Shown here one piece after another: positions 8,206 through 59,756 of a stretch of 64,000 nt of DNA. Below the pieces are notes generated by a model, which searched no databases, had not been told where the DNA came from, and was given only the letters and a program-made list of their open reading frames with translations. This DNA is from Hamadaea flava (GTDB lineage Bacteria > Actinomycetota > Actinomycetes > Mycobacteriales > Micromonosporaceae). The DNA is taken from NCBI RefSeq assembly GCF_024172085.1, contig NZ_JAMZDZ010000001.1:8184001-8248000 (forward strand), read 5' to 3'. The position numbers and the translations under genes were made by a program. Numbering within the stretch: the first letter of the stretch is position 1; the number at the start of each line of letters is the position of its first letter.

Positions 8206-8805
8206 ATGCAGGTACGAGCGCACGACTTCCAGCCCCGGGACCTGGTCGCCGGCGACGTCGTGCTCGACTTCGTCAACACGGTCACGGCGCGGGACACCGA
8301 GCCGATCGACTGGCTCGACGACTACGCCGCGTTGCTCTCCTGGTCCGTGCTGGCGGACCTGCCGCCGGACGCGGTGGCCCGGCTCGCCTCCGAGGCGGTC
8401 GCGCACCCGCGCCGAGCCGCCCACGCGTTGGCGGGGGCGAAGGTGCTCCGCGAGGCACTGTGGGAACTGTTGAGACACGACCAGGCCGAGGACGCCGTCG
8501 CCCGGCTGACCGAGTCGTGGCGGTCGGCAACGACCGCAGCCGTCCTGACCGGCTCAGCCGGTCGGCTGGAACCGACCGCCAGGGTCGAGAACTCCGGGCT
8601 GGCCTATCCGGAGCACTTCGTCGCCCTAAGGGCCGTCCGCCTGCTGGAGACCCTGCCTTCCGTCCGCCTGCGAGTGTGCGGCGGTAGGCACTGCGGCTGG
8701 CTGTTCCTGGACACGTCCAAGGCCGGCCGACGCCGCTGGTGTGACATGGCCACCTGCGGAAACGCCGAGAAGACGCGTCGCCATCGATCTGTCCTACGCC
8801 CGTGA
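8206..8805 (+). CDS. CGNR zinc-finger transcriptional regulator (ABATE domain)
   Basis: 199 residues from the ATG at 8206; an ATG 21 bp earlier is in frame but lies upstream of the -10 box. N-terminal ABATE-type domain (LDFVNTVTAR, WLDDYAALLSW) that is thought to bind a ligand, and a C-terminal zinc ribbon with Cys residues in RVCGGRHCGWLF, RRRWCDMATCGNAEKTRRHR. The eponymous CGNR reads CGNA here, a conservative loss since the Cys ligands remain. Proteins of this family are stress- or metabolite-responsive DNA binders. Divergent orientation to the arginase-like gene suggests it as a target. Confidence 0.85.
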   Translation: MQVRAHDFQPRDLVAGDVVLDFVNTVTARDTEPIDWLDDYAALLSWSVLADLPPDAVARLASEAVAHPRRAAHALAGAKVLREALWELLRHDQAEDAVARLTESWRSATTAAVLTGSAGRLEPTARVENSGLAYPEHFVALRAVRLLETLPSVRLRVCGGRHCGWLFLDTSKAGRRRWCDMATCGNAEKTRRHRSVLRP

Positions 8806-8817
8806 CATCATCGGATC

Positions 8818-9309
8818 ATGGAGATCACGAACGACGGACGGCACGACTTCGATTTCATTTTCGGCCAGTGGCACGTGCTGAATCGCAAGCTGCGGGATCC
8901 GCTCGACGCCGACTGCGATGAATGGGTGGAATTCGGAGCGCGCGCGGTCGCCGAGCCGATCCTTGGCGGTCTCAGCCACGTCGACCGGATCTGGGCCGAG
9001 GCGCCGCCGGGAGGGACCGCGTTCGAGGGATACACCCTGCGTCAATTCGACCCCGCGGCGAGGACCTGGCGGATCTGGTGGGCGTCCACCCGGCAGCCCG
9101 GCCATCTCGACCCGCCGGTCGAGGGGGCCTGGTCGGGCGGGCAGGGCGTGTTCGAGTGCGACGACGTGCTGGGCGGGATGCCGACGCGCGTGCGGTTCAC
9201 GTGGACGCACGATCAGCCAGACCAGGCGCGGTGGGAGCAGGCATTCTCCGTCGACGGCGGAGTCACCTGGCGTACGAACTGGGTCATGGAGCTGACGCGG
9301 GCCGCCTGA
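8818..9309 (+). CDS. DUF1579-like small-molecule-binding fold protein
   Basis: 163 residues. The start HDFDFIFGQWHVLNRKLRDPL matches the FDF-x-x-G-x-W-x-V-x-x-R opening of DUF1579-like beta-barrel proteins, and the repeated strand pattern ending FSVDGGVTWRTNWVMELTR fits a closed beta sheet. No catalytic motif and no signal peptide. Only 12 bp separate it from the CGNR gene, so the two are probably one transcript. Function unknown; such folds often bind lipids or other small hydrophobic molecules. Confidence 0.7.
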   Translation: MEITNDGRHDFDFIFGQWHVLNRKLRDPLDADCDEWVEFGARAVAEPILGGLSHVDRIWAEAPPGGTAFEGYTLRQFDPAARTWRIWWASTRQPGHLDPPVEGAWSGGQGVFECDDVLGGMPTRVRFTWTHDQPDQARWEQAFSVDGGVTWRTNWVMELTRAA

Positions 9310-9422
9310 TCCGGGCCCAGGGGAGATCATCAGGGCTCGACCAGGGATTTTCCCGGGGGTCGGCGAGGGGCGTTCCGGACGACGATGGCGATAGGAGATC
9401 ACGTCGTACGGAGGTAACCGTC

Positions 9423-10412
9423 ATGGCAGCACAGTGGACCGTTCCGGACGGGCTGCGTACCACCCCGCCGAGGTTGCCGGTCGAGGGCGTGGTGCCGTCG
9501 TTCGCCGGTGCGCCCGCCGATCTGCGCGGGAACGTCGCCCTGGTCAGCTTCTGGACCTACACCTGCGTCAACTGGCTGCGGCAACTGCCCTACCTGCGCG
9601 CCTGGGCGCACAAGTACGCCGATCACGGGCTGGTCGTCCTCGGCGTGCACACCCCGGAGTTCGGCTTCGAAGCCGAACCGGACAACGTCAGCCGGGCCGT
9701 CGCCGCGCTGGGCGTGGACTACCCGGTCGTCGCCGACGACGACTACGCGATCTGGCGGGCGTTCGGCAACTCCGCCTGGCCCGCGCTCTATCTGGCCGAC
9801 ACCGAGGGCCGCATCCGGCGTCACCACCTCGGCGAGGGCGAATACCAGCAGACCGAGGCGGCGATCCAGGCGCTGCTGACCGAACGCGGCTCGACCGGAT
9901 TCGACCCGGCCCCGGTCACGGTCGCCGCCGAGGGCATCGAGGCACCGGCCGACTGGACGACGCTGCGCACCGCCGAGACCTACACCGGATACCAGCGGAC
10001 GGCGTACTTCGCGTCTCCCGGCGGCCTCGTGCCGAACCGGCGGCACGCGTACGCCGAACCCGCGCGGCTGGCCGTCGACGCGTGGGCGCTGGCCGGCGAC
10101 TGGACCGCCCAACCGCAGGCTGTCATGTCGGACGCGCCCGGCGGCCGGATCGCGTACCGGTTCCACGCCCGCGATCTGCACCTCGTCCTGGCCCCGGCCA
10201 TGCCCGGCAGTTCGGTGCCGTTCCGCGTACGCCTCGACGGCGGCGCGCCCGGTCCGGCGCACGGGCTGGACGTGGACGCCGACGGCTACGGCGTACTCGC
10301 CGAACCACGGCTGTATCAGCTGATCCGGCAGCCCGGCGAGATCACCGACCGGACCTTCGACATCACGTTCGGCGACGCCGGTGCCGGGGCGTACGCCTTC
10401 ACCTTCGGCTGA
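9423..10412 (+). CDS. Thioredoxin-like (DipZ-type) redoxin with C-terminal beta domain, single Cys
   Basis: 329 residues; ATG preceded by the strong ACGGAGGTAACC. Residues 15-160 are a TlpA/DipZ-type thioredoxin domain: LVSFWTYTCVNWLRQLPYLR, GVHTPEFGFE, DYAIWRAFGNSAWPALYL, GEGEYQQTE. The family normally has CINC; here the active site is C48-V-N-W51, so the resolving Cys is lost and a classical dithiol mechanism is impossible. Residues 190-329 form the beta-rich domain seen at the C-terminus of DipZ proteins. No signal peptide or membrane segment is seen, unlike full DipZ. It may act as a one-Cys peroxidase-like or binding protein. It converges on the ECF sigma gene. Confidence 0.82.
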   Translation: MAAQWTVPDGLRTTPPRLPVEGVVPSFAGAPADLRGNVALVSFWTYTCVNWLRQLPYLRAWAHKYADHGLVVLGVHTPEFGFEAEPDNVSRAVAALGVDYPVVADDDYAIWRAFGNSAWPALYLADTEGRIRRHHLGEGEYQQTEAAIQALLTERGSTGFDPAPVTVAAEGIEAPADWTTLRTAETYTGYQRTAYFASPGGLVPNRRHAYAEPARLAVDAWALAGDWTAQPQAVMSDAPGGRIAYRFHARDLHLVLAPAMPGSSVPFRVRLDGGAPGPAHGLDVDADGYGVLAEPRLYQLIRQPGEITDRTFDITFGDAGAGAYAFTFG

Positions 10413-10415
10413 CGG

Positions 10416-52164: not shown

Positions 52165-53535
52165 ATGCCCGGAAGCCACCCTGTGCGCAACCGTGCGCTC
52201 ATCGCCGCGTACGCCCTGATCCTGCTCGTCTTCGGCCTGCCGATGTCGGCCACCGCGCGTACCGCTCCGGAGAAGAGCTGTGACGCGGGCCTGCAAGCCG
52301 TCGTCACGACCCGGCACGTCGTGTGCACGCACGGACCGGACGCCACGCCGCCCGGCCTCGACATCCACCGCCCGGTGGCCCCGCTGGCCGCGTCCCTCAC
52401 CGCCTCGGCCCTGCCGGTCTGCGAGGGCGACGGGGTCAGCGGCAAACGTGTCGAGGTCCTCTACATCCACGGCTCCACCAGCCGGTACGCGCAATACCTG
52501 GAGACGTTCCGCACGCTGGCCGAAGGCGTGGACGCGATCTACAACGCGAGCGCGGCCGAGACCGGCGGGGAACGCCACGTCCGCTAGGTCACCGAGACCG
52601 TCAACGGGCAGTGCCGCCCGGTGGTCCGCGACGTACAGATCGCCGACTCGGCGCTCAACGCCGACGACTGGGCCCCGCTGCTCAACGCCGTGCAGGCGGC
52701 CGGCTACACGCGTACGGACCGCAAGTATCTGCAGTTCGTCGACGCGACGATCTACTGCGGCATCGGCGGCTTCGCCGGGGACACCACCAAGAGCGACAGC
52801 AACCGGTCCAACGTCGGCCCCGAGTACGCCCGAGCCGACAGCGGCTGCTGGAACGCGGGTGTCGCCGCGCACGAACTCGGCCACACCCTCGGCGCGGTCA
52901 ACAACAACGCCCCCAACGCGTCCGGCCACGCGCACTGCGTCGACGAGTACGACGTGATGTGCTACAAGGACGCCGACGACGTCACGCTGGTCTACCGCTG
53001 CACCGACCAGGCGCACGACAACCGGCTCGACTGCAACCACGACGACTACTACAACACCAACCCGCCGGCGGGCAGCTACCTGGCGAACAACTACAACGTC
53101 GCCGACAACCTGTTCCTGATCAAGGGCGGCGGTGGCACCACGCCGCCGCCCTCGACCACCTTCAAGCTGACGAACGGGGCGTCCGGCACCTGCCTCGACG
53201 ACCCCAACGGCAGCACGACCAACGGCGTACAGCTGATCTTGTGGACGTGCAACGGCGGGACCAACCAGACCGTCACCCAGAGCGGGGCGGCGCTGCAGAT
53301 CCTCGGCAAGTGCATCGACGCGTACGGCGCGGGGACGGCCAACGGCACGAAGATCATCCTGTGGACCTGCTCCGGCAGCACGAACCAGCAGTGGACGCTG
53401 CGTTCGGACGGCTCCATCGCCGGAGTGCAGTCCGGTCGGTGCGTCTCGCCGCTCAACGGCGCGACCGCCAACAACACCCAGCTCGTCCTGTTCGACTGCA
53501 ACGGCCAGGCGTACCAGCGCTGGACCCGCAGCTGA
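52165..53535 (+). pseudogene. Secreted metzincin-like protease with ricin-type lectin domain, interrupted by in-frame TAG
   Basis: One continuous frame of 456 codons apart from an amber codon at 52585-52587 (codon 141). AAAGGAAGC precedes the ATG. Sec signal (ALIAAYALILLVFGLPMSATA), N-terminal region up to GGERHVR, then the stop, then VTETVNGQCRPVV and the rest of the domain. Zinc motif HELGHTLGAVN (His236) with a following Cys-rich stretch and DVMCY Met-turn mark a metzincin-type peptidase. Residues about 333-456 are a ricin B-type lectin fold with QxW-like repeats (TNQQWTLRSDG, AYQRWTRS). Without readthrough only the first 140 residues are made. Confidence 0.8.
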
Positions 53536-53571
53536 CGTGACCCGCAGCTGACGCAATCGGGAGCTGACGTG
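53524..53571. repeat. Duplicated stop-codon context
   Basis: ACCCGCAGCTGACG occurs at 53524-53537 (contains the TGA stop) and 53540-53553, and the word AGCTGACGTGA again at 53562. Short local duplication at a gene end. Confidence 0.65.
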
Positions 53572-53574
53572 ATC

Positions 53575-53604
53575 GGCCGCGCGCGGGGCTCACCGCGCGC
53601 GGCC
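53575..53604. terminator. Hairpin terminator between convergent genes
   Basis: GGCCGCGCGCGG (53575-53586) and CCGCGCGCGGCC (53593-53604), loop GGCTCA. Confidence 0.75.
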
Positions 53605-53628
53605 ACCTGCCGAGCCGACCGAGGACGT

Positions 53629-53943
53629 TCAGGCCTGGCCGGTGGCGATCGCGCCGATCTTGCCGTCGACGATCGTGAACCGCCACCGCGTACGCATCTC
53701 GCCCCAGGTGTCGTTGCGATACCGGGCGATCATCGACAGCCCGTCGTCGTCCTGCTCCTCGACGTCGAGGTGGCCGTTGACGGTGAAGATCTCGCGGTCG
53801 ATCCACTCCTCGAGGTCCTGCTGGGTGTCGTCGTCGGACAGGATGGCGTCCGGCGTCAGCGCCGACAGGAACCGCGGCCGGTCGCCGGTGTTGATCGCCT
53901 CGACCAGCTCGCGGACGGCCGGGTGGACGACTGACTGGTTCAC
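53629..53943 (-). CDS. Small SnoaL-like protein (leaderless)
   Basis: 104 residues from the GTG at 53943; the -10 box TACGAT (53955-53950) lies 6 bp before it, so the message is leaderless, and a GTG 3 bp earlier is the alternative. NTF2-like fold: VRELVEAINTGDRPRFLSALTPDAILSDDDTQQDLEEWIDREIFTVNGHLDVEEQ and RYRNDTWGEMRTRWRFTIVDGKI. The acidic tract SDDDTQQD is distinctive. Function unknown; single gene downstream of the chaperone operon and transcribed in the same direction. Confidence 0.75.
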   Translation of the reverse strand: MNQSVVHPAVRELVEAINTGDRPRFLSALTPDAILSDDDTQQDLEEWIDREIFTVNGHLDVEEQDDDGLSMIARYRNDTWGEMRTRWRFTIVDGKIGAIATGQA

Positions 53944-53992
53944 CACCGGATCGTATGCGGGCGGCCGTGGCCTGCGCCGGAGTATGCGCAGA

Positions 53993-54451
53993 TCAGGCGG
54001 CGGGCGGCCGGTTGACGCGTACTTGGGCGGGACGGAAGACCCAGCCGCCGTAGTGGTATCCGCGCCGGAAATGCCCGGTGATCGCGCGATCGGGCTGGTC
54101 GGGGTCGGCACCGGTCTCGACCGCCTCGTGCCGGGCCGGATCGAAGCCGTCCGCGACTCCGATCTCCTGGACGCCCTGGGCCGAAAGGACGTCCAGCAGT
54201 TCGTCCCGAAGCGACTCGGCGAAGGCGGGATCGGGGCCGGCGTACTGGTCGAGCCGGTCGATGGCCCGTGCCACCTGCGTGACCATCGGCTGCAGCGCCT
54301 CCCGGAACAGGCCCGCCTCGGCGCGCCGCGCACGTTCGGTCAGCTCGGACAGCGCCTGCCGGGCCGTCTTGTCCTCCAGCAAACGGCGCTGGAACAGGTC
54401 GAGGAGGTGATCCAGCTTGGCCTGGATGGGGTCCGATGTCGGCTGGGTCAC
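53993..54451 (-). CDS. GrpE-like nucleotide-exchange factor of accessory chaperone operon
   Basis: 152 residues; GTG overlaps the Hsp70 stop (GTGA). The first 85 residues are a long helix (LDHLLDLFQRRLLEDKTARQALSELTERARRAEAG) as in GrpE dimers; the C-terminal beta domain has VQEIGVADGFDPARHEAVETG and RRGYHYGGWVFRPAQVRVNR, matching GrpE's GY-x-x-x-x-R-x-L-RPA-x-V pattern. It would release ADP from the lid-less Hsp70 encoded just before it. Shorter than housekeeping GrpE. Confidence 0.83.
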   Translation of the reverse strand: MTQPTSDPIQAKLDHLLDLFQRRLLEDKTARQALSELTERARRAEAGLFREALQPMVTQVARAIDRLDQYAGPDPAFAESLRDELLDVLSAQGVQEIGVADGFDPARHEAVETGADPDQPDRAITGHFRRGYHYGGWVFRPAQVRVNRPPAA

Positions 54452-55968
54452 TGCAGGCCCAGCGTACGCAGGGCGGCGCGGCCGCGGTCCAGGTCGTCGG
54501 CGCTGAGGTTGTTCGGGCGGTCGAGTTCGATCTCGCCGAGCGAGCGGTTGTTGGTCACGTCGAACAGTTCGACGTGGACCACGCCGTCGACGTCGTAGGA
54601 CATGACGGTGCGGATGGGCGCGCCCTTGGGCAGTCCGGGGGGCAAGGCCATGTGGGTGCTGTGCAGGACCGCGACGTACTCGGGATCCTCGTCCTCGCCT
54701 TCGGTGACCTGTATGTCGATGCGGCCCTGGTGGTGATAGATCGTGAAGGACAACGCCTCGTGCTGGCACGGGATGCGCGAATTGCGAGGGATGATCACCA
54801 CGTTGACCCGGCGGCCCGTCTCCTCGTCGAGCAGGATCTCGCCGAGCGCCTGCGAGGTGACGTCCACGACGGTCACGGGGATGGCCGGCGCCTGCCCGGC
54901 CTGCTCCGCCTGGAGCTGACCGGCCAAGATCGCCGCGCCGATGGCGACCGCCTCGTCCGGGTTGACCCCCGGCTCGGGGTCCTTGCCGGACAGGTGTCGC
55001 ACCAGCTGCCGGATCATCGGCATCCGGGTCGAGCCGCCGACAAGCAGTACCTTGTCGATCTCGGCCCAGGTGAGCCCGGCCTGGTCGAGCACGGATTCGG
55101 TCAGCATCTCGATCCGGTCCAGCAGGTCGGCCGTCATCGACTCGAAGCCGTCGCGGGTCACCGGGAACCGGTATGCCCGGCCGCCCGCGCTGAGGTGGAT
55201 CGTCGACTCGGCGACGCTGGACATCCGAATCTTCGCTGCCTCGCACCGTTCCCGCAGGTCGACTGACAGCTGCGGGTCGTCGTCGAGGTCTGGGCCGCCC
55301 TGCTCGGTCAGCCGCCCTTGCACGTAGGCGATGAGTCGGTTGTCGAAGTCGAAGCCGCCCAGGTTGCGATCGCCGTCAGTGGCGACCACCTCGAACTCCG
55401 TGCCACCGGCGGCGCGCATGACGGTGACGTCGAACGTGCCGCCGCCGAGGTCGAAGACGAAACAGGTGCCGGTCGCGCCGGTCTTGAGCCCGTACGCCAG
55501 CGCGGCCGCGGTCGGTTCGTTGATCAGCCGCAGCACGTTCAGCCCAGCCAGCTCACCGGCGTCTCGGGTGGCTTTGCGGCGGGCGTCGTCGAAGTACGCC
55601 GGAACGGTGATGACCACGTCCCGGACCGGTGTTCCGAGCGTGGCTGCGGCGTCCTCAGCCAATCGGCGCAGGATGAGCGACGACACGTGCTCGGCCCGGT
55701 ACTCCTTGCCTCGCTGATCGACGTAGACCGGGTTCGCCTCGCCCATCCGCCGCTTGACGAATTGGACGCAGTCCTCCGGCTGCATGGCCATCGAGTGCTG
55801 GGCGAGCTTGCCGACCAGGATCTGGTCCGGCGACTCGAACAGCACGATCGACGGCGTGAGCCGGTCGCCGTCGCGGTTGGTCAGCACCTCCGGCTGGGCG
55901 CCGCCGGGCACGGCTGCCGCGGCGGCGGAGAAGGTCGTGCCGAGGTCGATCCCGATCACCTGTGTCAT
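54448..55968 (-). CDS. Lid-less Hsp70 (DnaK-like) chaperone
   Basis: 506 residues against 610-640 for DnaK. Full ATPase domain: VIGIDLGTTFSAAA, VVITVPAYFDDARRKATRDAG, INEPTAAALAYG, CFVFDLGGGTFDVTVM, VLLVGGSTRMPMI. The linker and beta-substrate domain run from VVDVTSQALGEILL to about residue 485; the helical lid is missing and the tail ends LDRGRAALRTLGLQ. Without a lid, clients are held loosely, suggesting a specialised role. It lies 4 bp after the J-like gene and overlaps the GrpE-like gene, forming a dedicated operon. No HspR or CIRCE site precedes it. Confidence 0.92.
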   Translation of the reverse strand: MTQVIGIDLGTTFSAAAAAVPGGAQPEVLTNRDGDRLTPSIVLFESPDQILVGKLAQHSMAMQPEDCVQFVKRRMGEANPVYVDQRGKEYRAEHVSSLILRRLAEDAAATLGTPVRDVVITVPAYFDDARRKATRDAGELAGLNVLRLINEPTAAALAYGLKTGATGTCFVFDLGGGTFDVTVMRAAGGTEFEVVATDGDRNLGGFDFDNRLIAYVQGRLTEQGGPDLDDDPQLSVDLRERCEAAKIRMSSVAESTIHLSAGGRAYRFPVTRDGFESMTADLLDRIEMLTESVLDQAGLTWAEIDKVLLVGGSTRMPMIRQLVRHLSGKDPEPGVNPDEAVAIGAAILAGQLQAEQAGQAPAIPVTVVDVTSQALGEILLDEETGRRVNVVIIPRNSRIPCQHEALSFTIYHHQGRIDIQVTEGEDEDPEYVAVLHSTHMALPPGLPKGAPIRTVMSYDVDGVVHVELFDVTNNRSLGEIELDRPNNLSADDLDRGRAALRTLGLQ

Positions 55969-55972
55969 CGCG

Positions 55973-57100
55973 TCACCTCCACGGTCCGAACTGGCCCTGC
56001 TCGAACTGCCAGGCCTTCAGGTTGGTCTTCCACTGTGGTTCCAGCGACACGGCGTACACCAACCCGAGCACGGCGAGATAGCCGACGAGGAGCAATCCGG
56101 CGATGACGGCCGGCCCCACCTCGTCCGTCGTGTTGCCGCACACACACAGCAGGGCCAGGGCCACGGCTATGACGCCGCTGACCTTGACGACGCCGAAGCT
56201 GCGGATCCAGGCGTCCGGCGGCAGCCGCCGCACCTCGCAGTCGCGCAGGTACTGCTCCATCTGGTCGATCTGCCCGTGCAGCTCCGGATCGGTCGAGACG
56301 TGGCGCGCCCGGGAGAGATATGCCCGCATCTGATGGATCTCGGCCGGGGCGGTGACGGTGTAGCCGTCGTGCTCGCGATAGGCCGGGACCATTTCGGCCG
56401 CGTTGGTCAGGGCGAATCCGAGGGCGTCGCCGACGAACTCGGGATCGGTGGCCGTGGCGTACAGCGTTTCGAGGAGTTGCAGTCCGGCCGCGCCGCGCCC
56501 GGAGCGCATGAGCACTTCGGCCGATTCGACGGTGGCGTATTCGGCCGTGGGATCGAGGCGGCGTACCGTCTCGAACGCCTGGAGGGCGGCGTCCCACTGT
56601 TCCAGCTCGGTGTGCGCCAACCCGACCAGGTAGTGGTGCTCGGGCTCGGCCGGATCGAGGGACACCGCGCGTCGCGCCTCGAACAACGCCTGGCGCGCGT
56701 TGCCGAGACTGCCGTTGGCCTGCGCCATCAGCCGCCACGCCGCGGCCACGCCGTCGCCGAGTACGCGACGAGCCTCGTTCGCGCAGTACAACGCGCCGTG
56801 GTAGTCGCCGGCCTCCATGCGTTGCGCGGCCTCAGCCAGCCAGTCGTTTGTGGACACCATGGCGGGACCAACGGTCGGCGCGGCGGACAGCCGCAGGTCG
56901 TGTGCCTGCCGCTGGGCCGGATCGAGCAGGACGCGTTTGGCTTCCATCAACTGCTCGGCGCGACGCTCGGCCGCTTGGCGCTTGGCCTGGTCGGCATGGT
57001 TCATCCGGCGCTGGTTCTTGCGGTACTCCTCTTTGATCTTCTGCTCGATCTCGGCAGGGGTGGCCGACGACGGCATGCCGAGCAGGTCGTAGTAGTTCAT
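55973..57100 (-). CDS. J-domain-like, TPR and membrane-anchored partner of Hsp70
   Basis: 375 residues. Residues 1-70 are a J-like domain (MNYYDLLGMPSSATPAEIEQKIKEEYR, LLDPAQRQAHD) in which the catalytic HPD is replaced by His35-Ala36-Asp37; residues 80-300 hold TPR repeats (WLAEAAQRMEAGDYHGALYCANEARR, ARRAVSLDPAEPEHHYLVGLAHTELEQWDAALQAFE); residues 303-355 give two membrane helices (VVKVSGVIAVALALLCVCG, AVIAGLLLVGYLAVLGLVYAV). It would tether the lid-less Hsp70 to the membrane; whether it stimulates ATP hydrolysis without the Pro of HPD is uncertain. First gene of the operon. Confidence 0.85.
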   Translation of the reverse strand: MNYYDLLGMPSSATPAEIEQKIKEEYRKNQRRMNHADQAKRQAAERRAEQLMEAKRVLLDPAQRQAHDLRLSAAPTVGPAMVSTNDWLAEAAQRMEAGDYHGALYCANEARRVLGDGVAAAWRLMAQANGSLGNARQALFEARRAVSLDPAEPEHHYLVGLAHTELEQWDAALQAFETVRRLDPTAEYATVESAEVLMRSGRGAAGLQLLETLYATATDPEFVGDALGFALTNAAEMVPAYREHDGYTVTAPAEIHQMRAYLSRARHVSTDPELHGQIDQMEQYLRDCEVRRLPPDAWIRSFGVVKVSGVIAVALALLCVCGNTTDEVGPAVIAGLLLVGYLAVLGLVYAVSLEPQWKTNLKAWQFEQGQFGPWR

Positions 57101-57169
57101 CGAGTCTGGAGCCCCGTCCTCGAGTCAGGTGTCTCGCGGGTGATGTCTCACGGAGGTACGGCGTAGCTC

Positions 57170-57175
57170 AATATA
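57170..57175 (-). promoter_or_regulatory. -10 box of the accessory chaperone operon
   Basis: TATATT on the minus strand (57175-57170), with TGAGGC 17 bp upstream as a weak -35. The 5' leader is about 63 nt. No CIRCE, HAIR or other heat-shock element is visible. Confidence 0.45.
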
Positions 57176-57215
57176 GACGACGACCGCACGCTGCCTCAGG
57201 CTCGAAAATGGACGG

Positions 57216-59756
57216 TCAGGCGGCGTCCCGTCGACGGGCGCGCAGGGCACGGACCACCCCGTCGCGGCCGTCCATGATGATGCGGCGCAGCGCGCCCGGC
57301 CGGTCCGGGTCGGCCAGCCATGCGTCGGACGCGTCGATCGTGGCCTGCGAGATCTGCAGGGCGGGATAGGTCGCCCGGGCGAACCACAGGCCCATCTGCG
57401 CGTCGAACGTCGCGTACGCCTCCTGCACCTCGGCGAAGTAGTGCCCGGCGTACGGCGCGGTCAGCTCTTCCTGGCCGGTGTGCTGGAACCCGCTGCCGAG
57501 CGCCATGACCTCCCAGTTGGCCCGGCCGGACTGGGTCAGCCGCCGCCAGGTGTCGGCCTTCGCCGCCGCGGTGGGCAGCAGTGCTCCGGCCTTCGCCGCG
57601 CGCTGGCGGCCCCCGGCGGTGGCGTCGCGCTCCAGTTCGGCGGCGATCTCGGCCGAATCGATCGCGCCGACGGCGGCCAGCGCCTCGACGAGGTGCCAGC
57701 GCAGGTCGACGCCCAGTTCCAGCCCGTCCGGTACGCCGTCCCCGCGCAGCCAGCCGAGCAGCACCGCCGTCTCGTCGAGCGTACGGGCCGAGTCGGCGTA
57801 CGTGCGGGCCCAGACCTGCTGCAGATCGCTGCCCGGCTCCGCCTGCTCCAGCGCTGTCCGGGTCGCCGCGTGCAGCGTCGCCCAGCCGGTCGGCGCCCAG
57901 CCCGGATCGATGAACTGGGCGAGCGCCCGCTGCGCCTTGGTGAGCACCGCCGAGACCAGGTTGGCGTCGGTCTCGGCGGGCAGGTTCGCGGCGACCTGAC
58001 CCACGTACGCCCGCCCCGGCAGCTCGGCGTCGCAGACCATGTCCCAGGCGGCCGACCAGGCCAGCGCCCGCTGCATCGGCTGCGGGAACGCCGACAGGTG
58101 CCGCAGCAGCGTCTGCGTCGACCGCTCGTCCAGGCGCACCTTGGCGTACGTGAGGTCGTCGTCGTTGAGCAGCAGCACATCCGGCTGCCGCTGGCCCCGC
58201 AGTTCGGCGAGGTCGGTCCGGTCGCCGGTGACGTCGGCCTCGATCCGGCTGCGCCGCACGAGCCGGCCGTCGATCAGGTCGTAGAGGCCGATCGCGATGC
58301 GATGGTCGCGAAGGGTCGGATGGCCCTCCGGAGCCTCCTGGCCGATGACGACCGAGCGATACGTCCCGTCGGCGTCCACCTCGATCTGCGGCCGCAGCGT
58401 GTTGACCTCGGCCGTACGCAGCCAGCGGCGCGCGTACTCGCCGAGGTCCCGGCCGCTGGCCTGTTCGAGGGCGCGCAGCAGGTCGGCGAAGGTGGCGTTG
58501 CCCCAGGCGTGTTCGGTGAGGTGGGACTGCACGGCCGTGCGGAAGGTCTGTTCGCCCACGTACGCCACGAGCTGCTTGAGGACGCTGGCGCCCTTCGAGT
58601 ACGTGATCGCGTCGAAGTTGCTCTCGGTGGCCAGCGTGTCCGGCACCTCGGTGTAGATGGGGTGCGTCGAGGACAGCTGGTCCTGCCGGTACGCCTCGGC
58701 CTTGGCGGTGGCAAGGAAGGTGGCCCACGCGCCGGTGTGCCGGGTGACGCTGGTGGTGGCCCAGTAGCCGGCCCAGTCGGCGAACGACTCGTTCAGCCAC
58801 AGGTCGTCCCACCAGCGCAGGGTGACGAGGTCCCCGAACCACATGTGGGCCATCTCGTGCATGATGACCATCGCCCGCCACTCGTGCTCGACGGCGGTGG
58901 CCTTCGACCGGAACAGGCACAGTTCCTCGGAGAACGTGATGCAGCCGAAGTTCTCCATCGCGCCCATGTTGTACTCGGGCAGCAGGATCTGGTCGTACTT
59001 CGGCAGGGGATAGCGGACGCCGAAGGACGACTGGAAGTGGTCCAGGCCCCGCTTGGTGACGTCGAGGAACTCGTCCGCGTCGAGGTGCTCGGCGACCGAG
59101 GCCCGGCAGAACAGGCCCAGGTCGATGCCGTCGTGGGTGTCGCGTACCTCGTGGAAGGGCCCGGCGCAGACGGCTCCCACGTAGCTGCTCATCTTCGGGG
59201 ACCGCTGGAAGTGGACGACCTTGGCCCCGTTGGCCAGCGGCTCGACCCGGTCGACCGGCATCGTCGAGGTGACCAGCCAGTGGCCCGGAACGGTGACGTG
59301 CCAGGTGAACTCGGCCTTCAGATCGGGCTGGTCGAAGCAGGCGTACGCCCGCTGGCTGTCGGCGGGGCAGAACGAGGAGTAGACGTAGACCTCGCCGTCG
59401 ACCGGGTCGACCGCCCGGTGCAGGCCCTGCCCGCTCGACGAGTACGCGAACTCGGCCTCCACGACGAGGAAGTTGCCGCCGAACTCGGTCGCGAGCGCGT
59501 ACCCCTTGACGGGGTCGAATTCGAGCGACTGCGGCTGCCCGTTCAGGGTGACCTCGGTCAGCCGCTCGGCGGCGACCTCGATGACCGCCTCGGTGTCCCG
59601 GCAGTGGAAGGTGACCTCGGTCCGGGAGCGGAACGTCCCCTCGCCGGGTCCGCCTGCGCCGTCGGTCAGGTCGAGCTGGATGTCGTAGTGCCCCACCTCG
59701 AGCGCGGCGGCCCGCTCGATCGCCTCGGTCTGCGTGATGTTGCGAATCGCGGCCAC
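57216..59756 (-). CDS. pepN: Aminopeptidase N (M1 family)
   Basis: 846 residues from a GTG preceded by GGGGAGGCGAC. M1 metallopeptidase: substrate-binding GAMENFG, zinc site IMHEMAHMWFGDLVTLRWWDDLWLNESFADW (HExxH with the Glu 19 residues on), and the catalytic Tyr region ITYSKGASVLKQL. The C-terminal ERAP1-like helical domain (residues about 520-830) is complete, as in actinobacterial PepN. Cytoplasmic protein turnover. Transcribed toward the chaperone operon, which has its own promoter. Confidence 0.95.
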   Translation of the reverse strand: MAAIRNITQTEAIERAAALEVGHYDIQLDLTDGAGGPGEGTFRSRTEVTFHCRDTEAVIEVAAERLTEVTLNGQPQSLEFDPVKGYALATEFGGNFLVVEAEFAYSSSGQGLHRAVDPVDGEVYVYSSFCPADSQRAYACFDQPDLKAEFTWHVTVPGHWLVTSTMPVDRVEPLANGAKVVHFQRSPKMSSYVGAVCAGPFHEVRDTHDGIDLGLFCRASVAEHLDADEFLDVTKRGLDHFQSSFGVRYPLPKYDQILLPEYNMGAMENFGCITFSEELCLFRSKATAVEHEWRAMVIMHEMAHMWFGDLVTLRWWDDLWLNESFADWAGYWATTSVTRHTGAWATFLATAKAEAYRQDQLSSTHPIYTEVPDTLATESNFDAITYSKGASVLKQLVAYVGEQTFRTAVQSHLTEHAWGNATFADLLRALEQASGRDLGEYARRWLRTAEVNTLRPQIEVDADGTYRSVVIGQEAPEGHPTLRDHRIAIGLYDLIDGRLVRRSRIEADVTGDRTDLAELRGQRQPDVLLLNDDDLTYAKVRLDERSTQTLLRHLSAFPQPMQRALAWSAAWDMVCDAELPGRAYVGQVAANLPAETDANLVSAVLTKAQRALAQFIDPGWAPTGWATLHAATRTALEQAEPGSDLQQVWARTYADSARTLDETAVLLGWLRGDGVPDGLELGVDLRWHLVEALAAVGAIDSAEIAAELERDATAGGRQRAAKAGALLPTAAAKADTWRRLTQSGRANWEVMALGSGFQHTGQEELTAPYAGHYFAEVQEAYATFDAQMGLWFARATYPALQISQATIDASDAWLADPDRPGALRRIIMDGRDGVVRALRARRRDAA

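Follow-up and report, generated by a model that had tools for sequence, protein, structure and literature searches.

A putative membrane Hsp70 module with a lidless Hsp70 and an altered J motif in Hamadaea flava, from a conflict-linked chaperone family

The 64,000-nucleotide stretch of Hamadaea flava DNA analysed here (NZ_JAMZDZ010000001.1, positions 8,184,001 to 8,248,000; hereafter the window), from a genome of 8.86 Mb on one contig, carries at 53993-57100 a trio of tightly packed open reading frames (ORFs) on the minus strand that encode a J-like protein, then an Hsp70, then a GrpE-like protein. Judged from its sequence, the trio appears to be a membrane Hsp70 module with a dedicated role, from a family linked to conflict systems. 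The reading that we favor, with somewhat better than even confidence, is that the trio forms an Hsp70 machine dedicated to a client and located on the inner side of the cell membrane, and that it belongs to a patchy, at least partly mobile family serving effector or conflict systems. Because many related trios adjoin toxin or immune-like genes, the module is probably a dedicated helper for toxin or conflict systems and not a second general chaperone. The three genes are as follows.

55973..57100, minus strand: J-like protein with tetratricopeptide repeats (TPR) and two predicted transmembrane segments, 375 aa (ORF; Pfam DnaJ and TPR above cut-off; AlphaFold2 mean pLDDT 89.4)
54448..55968, minus strand: lidless Hsp70, 506 aa (ORF; Pfam HSP70, 409 bits; AlphaFold2 model)
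53993..54451, minus strand: GrpE-like nucleotide exchange factor, 152 aa (ORF; Pfam GrpE, 52.7 bits; PDB GrpE matches)

The tight packing proposed in an earlier note on this DNA was confirmed at the level of ORFs, with 4 nt between the J-like and Hsp70 genes and a GTG start for the GrpE-like ORF, which has a 4-nt overlap with the Hsp70 stop. The GrpE-like protein of 152 residues that the note described is likewise upheld, since its match lies above the curated Pfam cut-off of 25.8 bits; its length is short, yet not extreme, for a GrpE.

The J-like protein combines a J domain with TPR helices and a predicted membrane anchor, and its parts map to the window as follows.

56882..57100, minus strand: J-like domain, residues 1-73, helices I-IV (Pfam DnaJ match over residues 2-68; AlphaFold2 helices 3-7, 15-33, 38-58 and 61-73)
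56990..56998, minus strand: HAD (residues 35-37) in place of HPD (alignment of 17 family J domains; loop position in the model)
56393..56845, minus strand: TPR helical region, residues ~86-236 (Pfam TPR, model helices, Foldseek TPR matches)
56048..56197, minus strand: two C-terminal hydrophobic, predicted transmembrane segments, residues 302-320 and 333-351 (hydropathy and model helices)

Both Pfam matches of this protein exceed their cut-offs (DnaJ, 30.8 bits against 27.8; TPR_2, 32.7 bits against 27), and FNIII was not among the 15 Pfam families listed for it up to an E-value of 1. In the AlphaFold2 model, which was built on a 12-row alignment, residues 1-70 fall in blocks of pLDDT 92-96, and the J helices, four in number, are followed by an array of TPR helices, then by a small beta hairpin accompanied by two long helices, and finally by a pair of helices at the C terminus. 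The last two (297-322 and 329-352) coincide with the hydrophobic segments starting at residues 302 and 333, and HAD sits in the loop that links helix II to helix III. A Foldseek search with the model matched TPR proteins and was uninformative on function. The J domain is thus predicted to have a normal four-helix fold with an altered HPD motif. HAD for HPD, the TPR region and the membrane helices had all been read from the letters in the earlier note, and alignment, Pfam, hydropathy and AlphaFold2 agree with it, the anchoring being a prediction.

The helical lid is missing from the Hsp70 according to both the end of the Pfam profile match, at position 509 of 599, and the AlphaFold2 model (pTM 0.88, pLDDT 89.1; built on 11 rows), which contains the nucleotide domain, nine substrate-domain beta strands and one 13-residue C-terminal helix. 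A fold search with this model found ATP-state DnaK structures as best matches and was uninformative on function. Two features of the protein bear on its cycle.

54529..54873, minus strand: substrate-binding beta domain, residues 366-480, then one short helix, 490-502 (AlphaFold2 strands; alignment to DnaK chains)
55153..55236, minus strand: shortened hairpin of 28 residues (245-272) at the position of DnaK's GrpE-signature loop, against 34-36 residues in 22 of 23 measured canonical Hsp70s (hairpin-length measurement; meaning of the loop per PMC8215388)

The note's lidless Hsp70 of 506 residues therefore holds. On the lid and the J domain, which it had left to structure prediction, the models are divided, with no lid and no HPD but with a J fold that is normal.

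These departures recur in relatives of the trio, whose loci and genomes are denoted by L and G numbers. HPD occurs in none of 18 J proteins (17 aligned plus a plasmid copy); the site reads HAD, NPD, SAD, SSD, SPD, HPE, SAD, APS, SPD, no motif, SPD, SPS, NPN, SPD and three times APD, and in the plasmid copy HPN. Of the 18 proteins, 12 retain Asp, 13 Pro and three His, and each position changes somewhere. At least one hydrophobic segment is present in 16 of 17 J proteins, and two are present in 12 of 17. On the Hsp70 side, the linker is LLLDVTPLSLG in the main DnaK of the genome versus VVDVTSQALG- or ISDVTSQALG-like in the lidless family; LLLD is found in none of the lidless rows, with the Asp retained in most; among canonical ORFs, the search expression matched an LLLD-type hydrophobic linker in 33 of 34. 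The GrpE-signature hairpin has 28 residues in all 17 cleanly measured rows from actinobacteria and Bacillota, and the one canonical Hsp70 outside the 34-36 range has 24; the search expression was unmatched in 12 of 35 canonical rows, in L053, L060 and four deeper rows, and it gave 37 for L052.

HPD and the DnaK Arg that faces it act in J-Hsp70 coupling. Of 20 actinobacterial and Bacillota Hsp70 rows, 18 retain the facing Arg, which is lost only in L052, whose J motif is SPD, and L053, which has no motif; L056 and L058 have lost the Asp and kept the Arg, and no clear pattern of co-variation between the two losses was seen by eye. It is conceivable, though we doubt it, that the J-like protein is a tether or brake that binds Hsp70 without triggering ATP hydrolysis, as the mitochondrial J-like protein Pam16 does. 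The analogy would suit both the lack of HPD in all 18 J proteins, with changes at all three positions, and the altered Hsp70 linker, but the Asp and Pro that most J proteins keep, together with the J fold and the facing Arg, mean that some J coupling may survive. According to PMC8215388, the linker VKDVLLLD raises the ATPase rate, with its hydrophobic residues and Asp being important, and HscA and HscC are without the GrpE-signature loop and are thought not to use GrpE. In the present family the loop is shortened, yet a GrpE gene travels along.

The same three functions are supplied by the main dnaK operon, and the window Hsp70 is 40% identical to the main DnaK of its genome, which might suggest a paralogous operon acting as a second general stress chaperone. 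We consider this very improbable. Four HSP70 profile matches in the genome fall at three places: two share a frame at the main dnaK locus, one is the window gene and one a remote relative. Gene order at the main locus (L044) differs from that of the trio, and the main DnaJ, beside dnaK, carries HPD. The main locus also has three HAIR-like sites with 2 mismatches each, two upstream of dnaK and one upstream of a gene named clpB-like from our reading of it, and none of 200 shuffles reached three such sites. In the window, the HspR (HAIR) and CIRCE operators each gave 0 matches at up to 3 mismatches, where chance would give 0.65 and 0.01, respectively, which bears out the missing heat-shock operator of the earlier note; no sigma-70-type promoter or terminator pattern was seen in 53500-57500. 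In maximum-likelihood trees, canonical DnaKs form their own 100/100 clade apart from the window group (11 canonical rows in tree A, 6 in tree B). The lidless Hsp70s as a whole do not make a firm clade because deeper planctomycetal Hsp70s fall differently in the two trees, L076-L079 lying on the canonical side in tree A and L076 and L079 on the lidless side in tree B, and we confine our description to the actinobacterial and Bacillota set. By its sequence, the trio is an accessory system and does not duplicate the main dnaK operon. The note's view that it is no second general DnaK gains from the separate branch, the different gene order, the missing lid, HPD and HspR and CIRCE sites, and an accessory occurrence (absent from L196; six of 200 genomes of the taxonomic family).

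The accessory status is clearest in a genome of the same genus, L196, by comparison with which one further feature can be drawn.

53990..57201 (approximate boundaries), no strand: accessory segment, missing from the same position in L196 (synteny and flank alignment)

The trio is flanked upstream by an M1 aminopeptidase gene on the same strand (57216-59756) and downstream by a gene for a 105-aa protein (53629-53946). In L196 the counterparts of the two (87% and 83%, respectively) are adjacent, with ~270 bp and no trio between them, and the flank homology ends near 54.0 kb and restarts at ~57.2 kb of the window. This single comparison fits either insertion in the window lineage or loss in L196. 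No target-site duplication was established, the direct repeats in the accessory segment being short and imperfect. Repeated AGTACCCGTGGTCAGCG-like elements and near-complements were spotted by eye in the trio-free site of L196, at ~8350-8500.

The J protein is absent from all three other genomes of the genus, one of which is 87% complete. Among the 200 genomes of the taxonomic family, six, with the window genome included, have Hsp70 matches at E ≤1e-120; the same six have J matches at E ≤1e-20, and three further genomes have a J match without an adjacent Hsp70. J-profile matches in G114, G076 and G057 were not accepted as trios, as Hsp70 is absent from 18 kb around them. In the phylum, a J-profile match at E ≤1e-15 was found in at least 5 of 396 genomes, with the window genome included and one match being partial (five candidates scored per genome); the partial match in G234 was dropped because gene finding gave no genes. 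The window J protein as a direct query against named genomes yielded no confirmed relatives. Relatives were then sought with a profile of Hsp70 beta domains, of which the best 80 of 348 matches were taken, with the top ~25 treated as candidate relatives and lower-ranked ones serving as canonical controls. That the trio stands alone and varies in presence within the genus would be expected of a stranded remnant of a larger cassette without present function, a view that we find improbable given three intact, tightly packed frames and the fact that Actinosynnema, Dermabacteraceae, Rothia and G486 also have trios without any of the scanned partners.

One uniform scan of 22 loci found J, Hsp70 and GrpE together in 18, Hsp70 with GrpE in two and Hsp70 alone in two, with the three Glycomyces loci counted once each. 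The J gene of L058 is found further along its cluster, and L051 is a contig fragment. Hosts of the trio include Actinosynnema, Glycomyces, Streptomyces, Dermabacteraceae, Bifidobacterium, a Rhodococcus plasmid, metagenome-assembled genomes (MAGs) of Rothia and Ruminococcus, and the distant actinomycetote G508 (1.8 Mb). Glycomyces is placed by GTDB in the Micromonosporaceae. The module is thus recurring, and we did not find it described, as the earlier note had suspected, and its restriction to actinobacteria nearly holds, the one exception being the trio of the Ruminococcus MAG, which belongs to the Bacillota. The layout closest to that of the window is in Actinosynnema, with the same gene order and identities of 38% (J), 58% (Hsp70) and 52% (GrpE).

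Several relatives have peculiarities of their own. The Rothia MAG (L059:7229-10387) has two tandem lidless Hsp70 genes ahead of its J and GrpE genes, and the G486 trio (L052:13261-16552) is followed by ORFs that read as transposase-like and by fragments of a second Hsp70. The cassette Hsp70 of Bifidobacterium goeldii (L055, ~8834-10414) has an in-frame stop after residue 156 of its frame. Hsp70s of 495-661 aa, some of them lidless and on long separate branches, occur in Verrucomicrobia (L069, L071, L072, L074), Planctomycetes (L076, L077, L079) and an unclassified MAG (L078). The verrucomicrobial and planctomycetal Hsp70s (L069-L079) were not counted as trios, given that J and GrpE were absent at E 1e-4 and matched only at E 3e-3 or weaker at a laxer limit.

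The link to conflict systems comes from the neighbours of these trios. Seven of the 18 trios are accompanied, on their own strand, by an FtsK/SpoIIIE-type ATPase gene; four of the seven were checked with Pfam (36-43% identical to that of L042), L198 is so annotated, and two are BLAST homologues. In five of these seven loci an 86-aa protein of one family, by BLAST, is also encoded, and its members align with one another; L053 has three proteins of about that size instead, and L051 ends short of that point. We refer to these small proteins as WXG100-like on the basis of their size and one sub-cut-off match to PF06013 (E 0.019, in L041), the family not being listed for those of L042, L198 and L143 or the three of L053. 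Between the FtsK gene and the 86-aa gene lies a gene for a protein of 149-203 aa. Four of the five such proteins tested have a single strong hydrophobic segment near the C terminus, and that of L058 has none.

Downstream ORFs of the FtsK loci have differing ends. Toxin-like domains are present in three FtsK-linked trios, namely EndoU in L041 and a papain-fold glutamine deamidase in L058, both above the Pfam cut-off, and a sub-cut-off ribonuclease match in L042; the downstream ORFs of L053, L055 and L198 gave no useful Pfam match. In the Rhodococcus pseudokoreensis plasmid (L198), a complete cassette lies ~4 kb after annotated genes for a DDE transposase, TniB and TniQ, with a recombinase between. 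Upstream of the trio/FtsK/EndoU cassette of L041, a gene at L041:720-3029 encodes a 769-aa protein in which an Hsp70 nucleotide domain is joined to WD40 repeats.

The window genome has FtsK loci of its own, L143 (G000:C1:3842995-3845250) and L144 (G000:C1:5049671-5051956). Both include genes for an 86-aa protein and for a second protein of 198-243 aa that has hydrophobic segments, together with an ORF of 292-340 aa, and no Hsp70 is found in 20 kb around either. The FtsK proteins of the two loci are homologous to the trio-linked one along almost the entire profile (E 1.5e-125 and 7.1e-125), and given the physical linkage in 7 of 18 trios, the window trio might serve these loci in trans as a chaperone that keeps their small proteins or effectors export-ready at the membrane. 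We regard this as unlikely. FtsK loci occur in 182 of the 200 genomes of the taxonomic family and the trio Hsp70 in six, and such loci therefore normally manage without a trio; in addition, the 86-aa proteins of the window genome are unmatched to those of the cassettes at E 1e-5, and the window Hsp70 lies outside the branch of the FtsK-linked rows. Because FtsK is nearly ubiquitous, co-occurrence of trio and FtsK across genomes is uninformative.

Other trios adjoin a different set of genes. In Streptomyces, three trios have genes for a caspase-domain and a CHAT protein beside them, identified by Pfam in L064 and by homology in L062 and L065, and the three Glycomyces trios, which are of the window's branch, lie beside TPR proteins with sub-cut-off STAND/AAA matches, one of them with a trypsin-like domain. 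The Actinosynnema trio is adjoined on the other strand by an nSTAND1-WD40 gene (L063:11035-14733; nSTAND1, 358 bits). A tentative alternative is that the trio acts at the membrane to set a threshold for an intracellular effector of conflict (STAND, caspase or CHAT type), similar to what has been proposed for GAP1-N2 systems, in which a theme of HSP70, GrpE and a DnaJ/TPR partner has been published (PMC7159879). There is no effector-type gene beside the window trio, however, the STAND neighbours are a raw count, and GAP1-N2 is unmatched in the window genome and its Hsp70s belong to another clade.

A client-dedicated machine of a conflict-serving family remains our preferred reading, and a number of observations weigh against it. 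Five of the 18 trios, those of the window, Dermabacteraceae, Rothia, G486 and Actinosynnema, have no scanned partner. None of the ten genes neighbouring the window trio has a conflict-system domain by Pfam, and queries for FtsK, the 86-aa protein, STAND-like proteins, caspase and CHAT gave zero matches in 21 kb around it (43001-64000). The STAND label of the Glycomyces neighbours comes from sub-cut-off Pfam matches, and FtsK-like genes, present in most genomes of the taxonomic family, are mostly without a trio. In tree A, the window Hsp70 groups with those of Actinosynnema, Glycomyces and G063 (copy 2) with support of 100/96, and five FtsK-linked rows share a different group (83/84) with five rows that lack FtsK (L051 and L198 are outside this tree). 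Since the window Hsp70 groups apart from the FtsK-linked members, an export role rests on association in another branch of the family. Finally, because the loci are the best-ranked matches of similarity searches, the fractions of trios with a given neighbour should not be read as an unbiased census.

How might such a client-dedicated machine work? One possibility is that the predicted C-terminal membrane helices and TPR domain of the J-like protein bring client and Hsp70 together at the membrane. From general knowledge of Hsp70s, an open, lidless peptide site would bind clients quickly and loosely, which would favor brief holding or remodelling and not folding. The ATP cycle may be rewired, as there is no exact HPD, no LLLD linker and a shortened GrpE-signature hairpin, while the Hsp70 fold, the Arg expected to face the J motif and a GrpE of its own are retained. 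Among the relatives linked to FtsK, the Hsp70 likely keeps toxin-like and small partner proteins ready for the FtsK-type ATPase. A bolder and more speculative version, to which we give limited credence, is that these proteins are an undescribed Hsp70 class in which the whole cycle was rebuilt as a membrane holdase of mobile FtsK/WXG100-like toxin-export cassettes and repeatedly re-used by other conflict systems, the window copy being free-standing.

Standard accounts of the Hsp70 cycle treat HPD, the hydrophobic linker and the lid as working parts, and this family has changed or lost all three. Retaining an Hsp70, a J fold and GrpE, it offers a natural system for asking which parts are needed. 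The physical association of its members with FtsK toxin cassettes and caspase/CHAT pairs suggests that dedicated Hsp70 machines may handle dangerous cargo at the membrane.

Around the trio, Pfam assigned the ten neighbouring genes to CorA, beta-lactamase-family, aspartyl protease/TPR, LUD, ricin-B-type lectin, M1 peptidase or glycoside hydrolase proteins, or to none. A SnoaL-like label for the 105-aa gene was dropped, there being no Pfam match at E 0.001. The gene for a secreted ricin-B-type lectin-domain protein at 52183-53535 is split in two frames (52183-52587 and 52621-53535), and its counterpart in L196 is one intact ORF of 456 aa that is 90% and 96% identical to the two parts; the split may be a true break or a sequencing error.

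The trio can be set against several known systems. PADLOC gave no credible match for it (a lone E of 0.059 for GrpE), and a Hsp70/J/GrpE trio in FtsK/WXG100 toxin loci was not found described in a literature search largely without subscription papers, the available parts of PMC8195603 and PMC11019930 being silent on it. The GAP1-N2 conflict systems of actinobacteria and firmicutes are alike in their HSP70 theme, an HSP70 with GrpE and a DnaJ- or TPR-fused partner, and differ in being centred on GTPase, GAP1 and FNIII proteins (Kaur et al. 2020, PMC7159879). In our sample of 20 GAP1-N2 loci from 24 places, a strong Hsp70 match was present in 11, a weak one in one and none in eight. The 12 Hsp70s from the 11 loci are also short (521-554 aa) and lidless, with altered linkers, yet they form a separate 100/100 clade in tree B, and the facing Arg occurs in none of them and NEPTAAA in two. 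GAP1-N2 has no match in the window genome and is present in 23 of 246 genomes of the class.

In the mitochondrial import motor (mtHsp70, Pam18, Pam16 and Mge1), membrane-tethered J and J-like proteins, an Hsp70 and a GrpE homologue act at a membrane; the likeness is one of description, and the motor differs in its lidded Hsp70 and in serving import and not export. The J partners of E. coli HscC, DjlB and DjlC, are membrane proteins. HscC resembles the window Hsp70, again by description only, as a specialised Hsp70 without the GrpE-signature loop, with its own J partners and a link to membrane clients, but at 550-580 aa it has a lid domain and is not expected to use GrpE, where the trio has its own GrpE and no lid (PMC8215388). 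Stand-alone WXG100/FtsK operons, described as likely mobile secretion systems in PMC11090510, which cites Anantharaman et al. 2012, share with the FtsK-linked relatives an FtsK-type ATPase, small proteins (WXG100 in those operons, WXG100-like in the relatives), likely mobility and a secretion-like character; the available text of that paper does not mention a Hsp70/J/GrpE trio, and the window trio is without an adjacent FtsK. Compared with DnaK/DnaJ/GrpE, the trio is accessory and lacks the lid, HPD and the HspR site, has a shortened GrpE-signature hairpin and places its J domain in a TPR protein with predicted membrane helices, but it shares with that system the Hsp70 nucleotide domain, the beta substrate domain, the J fold and the GrpE profile.

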